Shown piece after piece: positions 52,048 through 57,211 of a stretch of DNA of 58,236 nucleotides. The DNA lies in IMG/VR virus record IMGVR_UViG_3300024344_000011, positions 1-58,236 of that record; one strand, given 5' to 3'. Every line of letters begins with the position of its first letter. Within the stretch, counting starts at the first letter, position 1. Made by a program: the position numbers and the translations under genes. The DNA comes from a virus. A model generated the notes under the pieces. That model was not told the DNA's origin, made no database searches, and worked only from the letters and a program-made list of their open reading frames with translations.

Positions 52048-52287
52048 ATGCAAGATGTAAACAGTTATTCAACTGCCAGGATATATACTAAATCATTAGC
52101 AAAAGCTCGTCTGCTTGCTAAAGATCAAAAGAAAAGTCAAATAAGAATAATAGAAGAAGCTATCAATCTTTTATGGAGCGATAAAATGAACCAAGAAGAA
52201 CCGATAGATATTATGGAACATTTACCTGAAGAAAAATCCACTGGGAGAGGGATTGAGAATGCGTTCAGCAACAGCAGAAAAGATTAA
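52048..52287 (+). CDS. Ribbon-helix-helix-like regulator
   Basis: 79 residues. YSTARIYTKSLAKARLLAKD, then QKKSQIRIIEEAINLLWSDK: a short strand with alternating residues (ARIYT) followed by two helices, the Arc/MetJ-type RHH layout. An acidic tail follows (EEPIDIMEHLPEEKS). Such proteins bind short palindromes as dimers. The 19-bp palindrome at its own promoter is the natural target, and similar palindromes occur elsewhere. AGAGGAAATAAAA precedes the ATG. It overlaps the methyltransferase gene by 29 bases. Confidence 0.65.
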   Translation: MQDVNSYSTARIYTKSLAKARLLAKDQKKSQIRIIEEAINLLWSDKMNQEEPIDIMEHLPEEKSTGRGIENAFSNSRKD

Positions 52288-52816
52288 ACCAAATAAAAAG
52301 TTACGAGGCTTAGAGTTATTTGCCGGGATTGGTGGTATGACTTTAGGTTTTGAAATGGCTTATGGAGAAGACTATGAATGCGTGGCATTTGTAGAGAGAG
52401 ATAAATATTGTGGAAAGGTTTTAAACAAACATTGGAGCGATGTTCCAATATATACAGATATAAGGGAATTTGATTATGACAAAGAAAAAGACAGACTCGG
52501 AAGAATTGACATTGTTCTCGGAGGTTTCCCATGCCAACCCTGGTCAGGGGCAGGAAAGCAACGAGGGGCGCAAGATGACCGAGACCTCTGGCCTGAAATG
52601 TTACGAGTTATTAAAAGCATCACGCCCCGACCTAGATGGATCATTGGCGAAAATGTGCAAGGCTTTGTTAACATGGAGATGGGACTCTCCCGCACGGTCT
52701 CTGATTTGGAAAATGAAAACTACCAAGTCCAACCATTCGTATATGGCGCTGTCGCCGTCCAGGCAAGGCATCAAAGGCAACGGTGTTTCGTTGTGGCCCA
52801 CTCCAAGAGCGACTAG
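52259..52816 (+). CDS. Cytosine-5 DNA methyltransferase, alpha part (motifs I-VIII)
   Basis: 185 residues from ATG 52259 (GAGAGGG upstream). Motif I GLELFAGIGGMTLG (17-30), motif II FVERD, motif IV GGFPCQPWSGAG (88-99, catalytic Cys92), motif V-like DDRDLWPEM, motif VI GENVQG (130-135), motif VIII QARHQRQR (168-175), then VVAHSKSD and stop. It has no target-recognition domain and no motifs IX or X. Those are encoded in the +1 frame by the next gene, which begins inside this one. Likely inactive alone and active as a complex with that product. Confidence 0.9.
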   Translation: MRSATAEKIKPNKKLRGLELFAGIGGMTLGFEMAYGEDYECVAFVERDKYCGKVLNKHWSDVPIYTDIREFDYDKEKDRLGRIDIVLGGFPCQPWSGAGKQRGAQDDRDLWPEMLRVIKSITPRPRWIIGENVQGFVNMEMGLSRTVSDLENENYQVQPFVYGAVAVQARHQRQRCFVVAHSKSD

Positions 52817-53723
52817 CCGTATGGCATATAGGGAGAAACCTTCCCCTTCTATGATCAATGGAACACATGGTTGGAGTCTTAATGCAGCTGTTACAGATAG
52901 CATGAGTGATACACCACATAGAATGTGGAATACTCCTACAGCTTTTGATTCGGGTAATCCTAATACACAAGAAAAAATAGATAAAGAAGCCAAAACAAAT
53001 AGAAAAGGCAGAGACAAACCAGGTCACTTAAAAGAAGAGGTTATGGTTGAAGAGGGTTTAAGAATGTGGCCTACAGACAATTTAATTCCTACTCCTGTTG
53101 CGACTGATCACCAAGATAATCCGGCTGAACAATTAGAAAATTGGAAGAAGAGAGCTAAAAAGAAAAAAGAAGAAGGAATAAACTTACAGTTTGCTCTTCG
53201 TCATTATGTGCAAATGTATCCCACTCCTACTGCAAGAGATTACAAAGGAGCAAGAAAGCCTGAAACATTAAAAAAGAAAGGCCGAACCGAAACAAACTCT
53301 TTACCTGATAAAGTGAGAGCATTAGAAGACCATAGAATGTGGCCCACTGCGAGAGCCGCTCTAGGTATGAATATGAAAACAACTGAAGGCATGGCAAAAC
53401 TCAGACATAAAGGATATTTAGAAACAGAAGTAGCCCATGTTCATATACACGAAGAAAAAAAAGAGCCTGTGGGAGCATTAAATCCTCCATGGGTTGAATG
53501 GTTAATGGGGTTTCCGATTGGTCATACCTCCATCAATGAAGATATTACATACAATATGGAGGTAGATTATTGGGGGGAAGAACCTCCTATATCAAGAGTA
53601 GCTGTAGGGGTAAAAAATAGAAAAGATAGATTGCGTTGTTTGGGGAATGCTGTTGTTCCTCAATGTTTAGCTGTGATAGCTGAATGTATTAAAGAGGTAG
53701 AAGATGAAGAAAACAATAATTAG
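52476..53723 (+). CDS. Cytosine-5 methyltransferase, nested beta part (TRD, motifs IX-X)
   Basis: 415 residues from ATG 52476, which has AAGGGA (52462-52467) at 8-base spacing, all inside the alpha gene in the +1 frame. The first ~113 codons are dual-coding and include TSGLKCYELLKASRPDLDGS and LIWKMKTT, a pattern I know from phage methyltransferase partner proteins. Then come repeated (L/M)WPTP..A motifs (106, and several more to about 300), and the C-terminal LNPPWVEWLMGFP (335-347, motif IX-like) and LGNAVVPQ (389-396, motif X). The repeats and the linker probably form the target-recognition part. Confidence 0.82.
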   Translation: MTKKKTDSEELTLFSEVSHANPGQGQESNEGRKMTETSGLKCYELLKASRPDLDGSLAKMCKALLTWRWDSPARSLIWKMKTTKSNHSYMALSPSRQGIKGNGVSLWPTPRATSRMAYREKPSPSMINGTHGWSLNAAVTDSMSDTPHRMWNTPTAFDSGNPNTQEKIDKEAKTNRKGRDKPGHLKEEVMVEEGLRMWPTDNLIPTPVATDHQDNPAEQLENWKKRAKKKKEEGINLQFALRHYVQMYPTPTARDYKGARKPETLKKKGRTETNSLPDKVRALEDHRMWPTARAALGMNMKTTEGMAKLRHKGYLETEVAHVHIHEEKKEPVGALNPPWVEWLMGFPIGHTSINEDITYNMEVDYWGEEPPISRVAVGVKNRKDRLRCLGNAVVPQCLAVIAECIKEVEDEENNN

Positions 53724-53880
53724 CTTAGTGATTCTTTTAGGAGGGTGTAATGCAACGGGAGTATCTAATTGCGATGTGCCTATTCATATAGGAACTGCAT
53801 ATAACAGCGAGGGACAAATGGTTATTTTAGAAGTTGAAGAACCAGGGTGTCCACGCATTGATACTTTTAAGGATTTCTAA
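53704..53880 (+). CDS. Small lipoprotein (58 aa) in the modification cassette
   Basis: A 59-codon frame from ATG 53704, overlapping the end of the methyltransferase beta gene by 20 bases, to TAA 53880. MKKTIISLVILLGGC is a good lipoprotein signal (LLGGC). The mature part has two further Cys (SNCDVP, PGCPRI), possibly a disulfide. The next gene starts one base after its stop. Exported to the envelope; perhaps superinfection exclusion, but that is a guess. Confidence 0.6.
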   Translation: MKKTIISLVILLGGCNATGVSNCDVPIHIGTAYNSEGQMVILEVEEPGCPRIDTFKDF

Positions 53881-53881
53881 A

Positions 53882-54454
53882 ATGATTCCTTTTCCAAAAA
53901 AGAAATACAATGTTATCTATGCTGATCCACCATGGCACTATCAAACATGGGGAGAGGGAAGTAATCGGAATGTAACCTCTAAATACGATACTATGTCTCC
54001 AGAAGAAATCTTTAAACTTCCTGTTAGTGATTTAGCAGATGAAGATTGTGTTTTGTTTATATGGGTAACTTTTCCCAAATTACTAGAGGGAATAAAAACT
54101 ATAGAAGAATGGGGATTTACCTACAAAACCCTTGCGTTTAACTGGGTAAAAACAAATAAAAAACTTAAAACGAATCAGACCTCTTTCTTACCTATGGATA
54201 GCTTTGATACCTTTTGGGGCTTAGGATATTGGACGAGAGCCAACAGTGAATTGTGTCTATTAGCTACAAGAGGAAAACCTAAGCGTGAATCCTGTAAAGT
54301 CCATCAGCTTGTCTATGAGCCTGTTCGGGAACATTCAAGAAAGCCGGATTGTGTCCGGGATAGAATTGTAGAACTCATAGGCGATGTTCCTCGTATCGAA
54401 TTGTTTGCTCGTCAAAAAGCTAACGGTTGGGATAATTGGGGTAACGAACTTTAA
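53882..54454 (+). CDS. MT-A70-type adenine-N6 DNA methyltransferase
   Basis: 190 residues from ATG 53882; an upstream in-frame start lies inside the lipoprotein gene. VIYADPPWHYQTWG has the catalytic DPPW at 14-17. LFIWVTFPKLLEGIKTIEEW and GFTYKTLAFNWVK follow. The C-terminal VREHSRKPDCVRDRIVELIG plus RIELFAR form the SAM-binding part. These are hallmarks of the MT-A70 family in phages (adenine N6). A second paralogue is at 56669-57211. Confidence 0.85.
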   Translation: MIPFPKKKYNVIYADPPWHYQTWGEGSNRNVTSKYDTMSPEEIFKLPVSDLADEDCVLFIWVTFPKLLEGIKTIEEWGFTYKTLAFNWVKTNKKLKTNQTSFLPMDSFDTFWGLGYWTRANSELCLLATRGKPKRESCKVHQLVYEPVREHSRKPDCVRDRIVELIGDVPRIELFARQKANGWDNWGNEL

Positions 54455-54577: not shown

Positions 54578-54614
54578 GTAATGCCTGGTCTGTATGGACT
54601 GGGCATTACTTTTT
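54578..54614 (+). terminator. Terminator or attenuator before the nuclease-like gene
   Basis: GTAATGCCTGGTC (54578-54590) pairs with GACTGGGCATTAC (54597-54609) with two mismatches, followed by five T. The RBS of the next gene (GGGG near 54618) lies just beyond, so the hairpin could act as an attenuator. Confidence 0.7.
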
Positions 54615-54626
54615 ACAGGGGAATAT

Positions 54627-54989
54627 ATGGCCCACGATAACCAAGCCATGAAGAGTAATATCACGAGAGGGGTAAGGGCAGAATTATTAGCGGCTGAGTG
54701 GTTGATAGAACAAGGCATATGGTCTTTTATTCCCATGTCGGCTCAAGGCCCGATTGATTTAGTCGGAGTAGACAAAGACGGAATAGTTTATTTATTTGAT
54801 ATAAAAGTTCAATCCCGAAGAAAAAACGGAACAAAAATATCTAGGTCTTTAAAACCCAACCAAAAAAAATTAGGCGTCCAACTGTTGTATGTTGATCTTA
54901 AAGCTAAAGAAATATTCATTGGAGGATCACAGAAGAAAGGCACGGACGGACAATTCTTAAGCCAAAAGAAATTCCTAAAAAAGAAATGA
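54627..54989 (+). CDS. PD-(D/E)XK endonuclease-like protein
   Basis: 120 residues from ATG 54627 with GGGGAATAT upstream; a longer frame would cross the terminator hairpin. SNITRGVRAELLAAEWLIEQ, GPIDLVGVDKDGIVYLFDIK: E, then D in GPID, then DxK, the core of small PD-(D/E)XK enzymes (Holliday junction resolvases, intron-type endonucleases). The C-terminus is basic. Because three methyltransferases lie nearby, it may be a restriction-like partner, but a replication or repair role (resolvase) is equally possible. Confidence 0.65.
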   Translation: MAHDNQAMKSNITRGVRAELLAAEWLIEQGIWSFIPMSAQGPIDLVGVDKDGIVYLFDIKVQSRRKNGTKISRSLKPNQKKLGVQLLYVDLKAKEIFIGGSQKKGTDGQFLSQKKFLKKK

Positions 54990-56668: not shown

Positions 56669-57211
56669 CTATAATATATTAAACAAAAATTCTTCTGTAG
56701 TTAAGTCGGGTATCTCATTACCCCATGCGTCCCAATTTGGTCGGGTATCTCTAGCAAACAGTTCTATTCTTGGCTCATGCGACATATGTTCTATGACTTG
56801 AATGGTTTCTCCGGGTTTAGCCGAATGCTTACCTCTCTTTGCATAAACCAGGCTAGGTATATTTCTATGTTTAGGTTTTAAGTTACCTTTAACTCCAAAC
56901 AAACAAATCTCATGTTGCCCTCTAAAATAATATCCAATGCCAAATCTATCTTTAGCCCACACCATGTTGGTTACATATCTAAATCCCCACTCCTCCATAA
57001 CCTCAAGGCCGTCCTTTAAAAAGTTATTTGTAACCCATAAATACAACCAACAATTATCATCAGCTAGGTCGGGGACATTTAATTTCTTGATTTCTTCCGT
57101 TTTCATAAGAGGATAATGTCTATCTGCGCCACGCTTTATCTTCCCCCCACCTTGTTCTTGCCAGGGGGGATCAGCTAATATGGTTTTATATTTTTTATCC
57201 GGAAAGAGCAT
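56669..57211 (-). CDS. Second MT-A70-type adenine methyltransferase
   Basis: 180 residues. TILADPPWQEQGGGKIKRGA has DPPW at 14-17, the same position as in the gene at 53882. NCWLYLWVTNNFLKDGLEVM, then EEWGFRYVTNMVWAKDR, and the C-terminal KHSAKPGETIQVIEHMSHEP with RIELFAR follow the same order. It is clearly paralogous by motif order but divergent, so a different specificity is likely. It overlaps the upstream gene by 17 bases. Confidence 0.85.
   Translation of the reverse strand: MLFPDKKYKTILADPPWQEQGGGKIKRGADRHYPLMKTEEIKKLNVPDLADDNCWLYLWVTNNFLKDGLEVMEEWGFRYVTNMVWAKDRFGIGYYFRGQHEICLFGVKGNLKPKHRNIPSLVYAKRGKHSAKPGETIQVIEHMSHEPRIELFARDTRPNWDAWGNEIPDLTTEEFLFNIL

Follow-up and report, generated by a model that had tools for sequence, protein, structure and literature searches.

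A phage cytosine-5 DNA methyltransferase, probably split between two overlapping genes, with exchangeable modules in the second reading frame

Here, we describe two overlapping genes, alpha and beta, in the virus record IMGVR_UViG_3300024344_000011, which is treated as a whole (58,236 bp; the window, with coordinates counted from position 1), has the terminase, portal and primase-helicase genes of a phage, and belongs to a marine phage. The pair very probably encodes, from one mRNA, a two-subunit (split) cytosine-5 (C5) DNA methyltransferase, of which alpha is the catalytic chain and beta, read from within alpha in the +1 frame, the predicted specificity chain. Their overlap of 341 bp, or about 113 codons, is genuine dual coding, and a beta nested in the +1 frame is found almost without exception in a large family of phage enzymes that is poorly annotated. 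The window itself is a derived minority form of this family, with motif X in beta and the alpha frame closed, and its phage is among the few lineages that have partly escaped the double reading. The features of the locus are as follows.

52243..52251 (+): Shine-Dalgarno-like (SD-like) GGGAGAGGG, 7 nt 5' of the alpha ATG at 52259; from sequence
52259..52816 (+): alpha, C5 DNA methyltransferase catalytic subunit with motifs I-VIII, 185 amino acids; from PF00145, TIGR00675 and alignment to M.HhaI
52310-52336 (+): alpha motif I; from sequence
within 52508-52546 (+): alpha motif IV, GGFPCQPWS; from sequence
52646-52666 (+): alpha motif VI, GENV; from sequence
within 52769-52798 (+): alpha motif VIII, RQRCFVVA; from sequence
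52462..52467 (+): SD-like AAGGGA, 8 nt 5' of the beta ATG at 52476; from sequence
52476..53723 (+): beta, predicted specificity subunit with an N-terminal domain, W-x-TP modules, motif IX and motif X, 415 amino acids; phrog_1008, 6e-31
52476..52816 (+): dual-coded overlap, 341 bp, alpha motifs IV-VIII against the beta N-terminal domain and the start of module 1; from stop depletion, beta similarity and synonymous constraint
53478..53528 (+): motif IX in beta, LNPPWVEWLMGFPIGHT; LNP..VE..MG invariant across 56 betas
53619..53663 (+): motif X in beta, RKDRLRCLGNAVVPQ; from sequence comparison, located in the alpha frame in most relatives

Alpha has the motifs by which a C5 methyltransferase (PF00145) is recognised, namely I, IV (PCQ), VI (ENV) and VIII; it matches PF00145 (3e-39) and TIGR00675 (2.7e-32) and aligns with residues 10-170 of M.HhaI, which span motifs I-VIII. 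Its frame closes six codons past motif VIII (HSKSD and the stop codon, which ends at 52816). Motifs IX and X, and a target-recognition domain (TRD) region between VIII and IX, are present at the locus but are carried by beta, whose stop ends at 53723; the core residues of its motif IX are LNPPWVEWLMGFP, and the core of its motif X is RLRCLGNAVVPQ. This anatomy bears out the original prediction, made from the sequence of the window, of a C5 methyltransferase split into two nested reading frames, with motifs I-VIII in alpha, motifs IX and X in beta, and an overlap of 341 bases opened by an ATG with its own Shine-Dalgarno; what that prediction missed was the family rule and the derived state of the window.

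In the arrangement that we propose, alpha would provide the S-adenosylmethionine pocket and the catalytic cysteine (motifs I-VIII), and ribosomes would restart at the internal ATG, one nucleotide out of phase, to make beta, in which an N-terminal domain of about 100 residues encoded over alpha motifs IV-VIII is followed by five W-x-TP cassettes of about 41 residues, motif IX and motif X. The two chains would then assemble as one enzyme, a putative heterodimer with methylation activity, with beta supplying the TRD, motif IX and motif X in trans. As motif X lies in alpha in most relatives, alpha would there have to stay open and be translated across all the cassettes, out of phase with beta; in the window lineage, motif X has shifted to the beta frame, leaving alpha free to end after motif VIII.

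Dual coding was assessed in 77 relatives less than 75% identical in alpha (mean pairwise alpha identity 53%), which were codon-aligned and whose alpha codons were redrawn synonymously. With the alpha amino acids held fixed, 376.7 stops would be expected in the +1 frame of the overlap and one is observed, and the proportion of loci in which this frame is open throughout is 0.99 against 0.013 expected; alpha upstream of the beta start shows no such signal (217 stops against 197). Mean beta similarity exceeds the null by z 98 in the overlap and by z 1.2 upstream. At conserved alpha residues, the synonymous Kullback-Leibler divergence amounts to 0.59 bits within the overlap and to 0.06 in the upstream part, a ten-fold difference, and one alanine in the overlap is coded GCT in 76 of 76 loci. 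A second null, the permutation of codons within genes in 28 loci less than 60% identical, gives one stop against 93 expected. For the window by itself, about 1-2 in every 10,000 synonymous redraws leave the +1 frame open by chance, and in a pairwise comparison with L009 (L-numbers label the relative loci or contigs compared with the window) beta identity is 0.52 against 0.32 under the null (0/1000), with no upstream signal. Residues 1 to about 100 of beta, which lie entirely within the overlap, are conserved well above what the alpha codons impose. Passive openness of the beta frame is thus rejected by synonymous resampling under two null models, and the earlier claim that some 113 codons encode conserved sequence in both frames, for which a synonymous-rate comparison across homologues had been proposed, stands: the constraint lies inside the overlap, and the beta frame is not closed in the homologues.

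How beta is made is indicated by the region 5' of its start, where 153 of 211 family members (73%) have an SD-like site, compared with 30% of other ATGs in alpha; internal initiation yielding two polypeptides is, on account of these sites, most likely. The alternative, a programmed +1 frameshift near the end of alpha that yields a single fused methyltransferase, has the attraction that one +1 slip past motif VIII in the window would give the canonical order of motifs I-VIII, TRD, IX and X. It would, however, need no conserved +1 frame, ATG or SD-like site upstream of the slip, yet about 100 codons there are strongly constrained, with the synonymous constraint distributed along the overlap rather than concentrated at one slip site, and in the nested majority a single chain could take up VIII, IX and X in order only by way of two slips in opposite directions. 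We therefore regard a frameshift as very improbable, and the choice between two subunits and a fusion, which the original prediction left open, now inclines strongly towards two subunits, given the conserved beta N-terminus, its ATG and its SD-like site.

A second way to recover one continuous gene is to suppose a sequencing or assembly indel, and a nearly identical contig with different frames, L008 (99.8% identical), might seem to favour it. The frames of L008 are broken by nine one-base gaps scattered across 6 kb, which look like sequencing noise and not like a credible continuous gene. Both frames are kept in L007, an independent contig that matches the window at 97% across 6 kb, in L009 and L010, whose betas are 60% identical, and in hundreds of family loci including finished bacterial genomes; moreover, past 52816 the alpha frame of the window is interrupted by 21 stops over the modules. 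An assembly indel in the window is rejected on these independent contigs, and the idea of an indel within one gene is almost certainly wrong.

Three points weigh against the reading of the pair as a dual-coded, two-subunit enzyme. Similarity in the +2 control frame is also raised in the overlap (z about 60), although this frame has 394 stops against the one in +1, and such a gain is expected where third positions are under constraint, whichever frame is read. AlphaFold models of beta alone, in a long and a compact version, are poor (mean predicted local distance difference test, pLDDT, 59 and 65), and because these values are low the models support neither a small-domain fold for beta nor an alpha-beta interface; beta may fold only together with alpha. 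Finally, the loci, which come from searches with beta and with alpha in viral contigs and bacterial genomes, were found via similarity to nested members, and their proportions describe this clade rather than all C5 methyltransferases: motif IX lies in a +1 open reading frame (ORF) overlapping the alpha motifs in 213 of 214 classifiable loci found with beta, and an overlapping +1 beta is present in 77 of 78 found with alpha, many contigs being common to both sets. The two exceptions are a contig with two tandem copies and L033, which has a one-base frame change before motif IX and was not used for the analysis of motif relocation. A viral contig, L048 (133-1952), has two nested methyltransferase loci in tandem.

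The overlap is seen repeatedly in phages and prophages from many bacterial phyla; the bacterial loci fall in Bacillota, Actinomycetota, Bacteroidota, Acidobacteriota, Pseudomonadota, Myxococcota, Chlorobiota and Thermodesulfobacteriota. To our knowledge, it is uncommon for two conserved domains of one enzyme to be encoded in a long overlap on the same strand. In the great majority of the family, alpha extends past the nested beta and bears motif X. Past motif VIII, these nested relatives are 43% identical in the beta frame, 28% in the alpha frame and 27% in the unread third frame, a pattern that marks beta as the conserved protein in this region and the alpha linker as a passenger sequence. 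The linker has no alpha-frame stops against 496 expected in 68 loci, a zero that follows from the definition of the class, which comprises 68 of the 74 loci tested; it is held open solely to let alpha continue as far as motif X.

Split and nested C5 methyltransferases are already known, the beta chain of M.EcoHK31I being nested in another frame, and PHROGs and some phage records contain both chains of the present family. M.AquI and M.EcoHK31I are proven two-polypeptide C5 enzymes, with motifs I-VIII and X in alpha and only IX in beta of M.EcoHK31I, and I-VIII in alpha and IX-X in beta of M.AquI (PMC3404938). The window resembles M.EcoHK31I in having a second polypeptide that supplies motif IX, here nested in the +1 frame, but differs in assigning the TRD modules and both remaining motifs, IX and X, to beta, with the alpha chain stopping after VIII; most relatives, in which alpha runs on and keeps motif X, are closer to M.EcoHK31I. 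With M.AquI the window shares the partition of I-VIII and IX-X, although part of the variable region is in the alpha chain of M.AquI and none is in that of the window, and the portions of the literature text consulted describe no deep dual coding of motifs IV-VIII in M.AquI. The phrog_1008 family ('DNA methyltransferase'), matched by 56 of 56 betas tested, and the nested pairs of Paenibacillus and Lacticaseibacillus phages keep motif X in alpha, unlike the window. A search on nested or dual-coded phage methyltransferases, with partial coverage and without subscription journals, found no description of them, nor, within this coverage, any account of dual coding throughout the family, of exchangeable second-frame modules or of the relocation of motif X.

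Public records commonly annotate one frame and omit the other: two features lie under the match in 28 of the 59 annotated phage records listed. In phages Leyra and Jacopo both frames are annotated as methyltransferase. The beta frame alone is annotated, and alpha in the other frame is not, in Porphyromonas phage018a (L331, 1300-2060) and Cylindrospermopsis phage Cr-LKS3 (L333, 1267-2004), and alpha alone is annotated in Lactobacillus phage Lc-Nu (L329) and a Paenibacillus polymyxa plasmid (L330). In the latter, pAP1, alpha has at 1299-2789 two successive blocks overlapping motif IX (LGRVSDGLSVGLDK / LGRVLDGLSARLDQ), as if duplicated. Should the modules determine specificity, a revised annotation would assign a function to many phage proteins now called 'hypothetical'.

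The placement of motif X distinguishes the window from most of its relatives. In the window, L007 and L009 it is in beta, and the alpha frame has 12-21 stops across the modules, compared with 10-26 expected without constraint. In a tree of 87 rows, whose bootstrap support is not fully settled, the motif-X-in-beta state occurs in five places, one of which (L266) is a probable indel artefact and was not used for relocation; the window clade (100/99) joins the motif-X-in-alpha relatives L055, L016 and L283 (97/93). Two sister pairs, L022/L077 and L044/L026, differ in the frame of motif X, the same segment (e.g. EWEPPRVATGVK.RV.RLK..GNAVVP) being in beta of one member and in alpha downstream of IX in the other, so that one frame-changing indel between IX and X suffices for the move. 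In L056 (542-2082), alpha, beta and motif X are in three ORFs and frames, possibly a three-piece arrangement or an indel.

These relocations bear on whether beta is part of the enzyme at all. Beta has no match in Pfam, NCBIfam, PADLOC or, by profile search, the PDB, and could on that account be made for another purpose, e.g. as a regulator or a decoy, with alpha acting alone or with another partner. Against this, the alpha of the window is without a TRD, IX and X, which occur only in beta, and each move of motif X from alpha to beta implies one shared active fold; we consider a non-subunit beta very improbable. Nor is it credible, save as an extremely unlikely case, that the window phage carries a decaying, functionless methyltransferase gene: its alpha is shorter than in most relatives, but it is identical to that of L007 over 164 tree columns (motifs I-VIII) while the flanking DNA differs by about 3%, and L009, at 60% identity, retains both frames and all motifs.

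Between motifs VIII and IX, the repeats of beta divide into units with a median of 41 residues, mostly one to five per protein. The original prediction had noted TRD-like repeats, and these are there; that they are exchangeable modules had escaped it. There are 39 module families with at least three members. Among loci that share less than 60% alpha identity, 53 pairs of modules match at 70% or better, and in 24 of these pairs the two modules differ in position whether counted from the first or from the last. Modules are found again, at 70-100% identity, in backbones that are unrelated and in other places along the array, and those of the window have the following counterparts.

52794..52925 (+): beta module 1, WPTPRATSRMAY..., 82% identical to module 4 of 5 in L015
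52926..53066 (+): beta module 2, WNTPTAFDSGN..., 77% identical to module 2 of L009
53067..53216 (+): beta module 3, WPTDNLIPTPVATDHQ..., 71% identical to module 2 of 3 in L036
53217..53339 (+): beta module 4, YPTPTARDYKGARKPETL..., 80% identical to module 2 of 2 in L093, uncultured Brevibacillus
53340..53477 (+): beta module 5, WPTARAALGMNMK..., 73-82% identical to modules of L009, L014, L012, L076 and L056

Module 1 begins on alpha motif VIII, the same bases reading VAHS in alpha and WPTP in beta. In L015, L026, L093, L014 and L036 the matching modules are open in the alpha frame too (VADSESN..., VAYTYCE..., VANTES...), whereas in the window they are closed in that frame.

In the multispecific C5 methyltransferases of Bacillus phages, TRDs lie between motifs VIII and IX. 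These enzymes (the SPR, phi3T and H2 group) have several tandem TRDs (PMC8936443), and the window, with five modules of about 41 residues in the corresponding place, would resemble them in having several tandem recognition modules; the Bacillus phage enzymes are single-chain, whereas here the array is in a separate subunit, mostly in the +1 frame over the alpha linker in relatives. By this analogy of position, length and exchangeability, the modules are probably swappable mini target-recognition domains. Since alpha passes through each cassette to reach motif X, each module would normally have to leave the alpha frame open as well. We lean slightly towards the fuller view that specificity is stored as swappable cassettes of about 41 residues legible in two frames, a constraint that the window and a few other lineages broke by moving motif X into beta. 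If so, motif X in beta would allow cassettes to be gained without keeping a second frame open, and the same cassette under dual-frame constraint in one lineage and free in another would offer a natural comparison; if the modules set specificity, the loci would also provide a ready-made collection of methyltransferase cassettes.

No restriction enzyme was recognised among the genes neighbouring the locus, and on this basis the enzyme is probably an orphan methyltransferase that marks the phage's own DNA and so protects it from host restriction. The C5 pair is flanked by MT-A70-type (adenine) methyltransferase genes at 53888-54454 (+) and 56669-57211 (-) (PF05063, phrog_359), which places three methyltransferase loci within 5 kb of the window phage. 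At 54594-54989 (+), a 131-residue ORF (PIDLVGV...FDIKVQ) is reminiscent of PD-(D/E)XK nucleases, with phrog_5018 (8.8e-06) its sole match and none in Pfam or PADLOC. At 53704-53880 (+), a 58-residue ORF with a lipoprotein-like start, MKKTIISLVILLGGC, and no Pfam match overlaps the last 20 bp of beta, and directly upstream of the pair a 79-residue ORF at 52048-52287 (+) overlaps the start of alpha by 29 bp.
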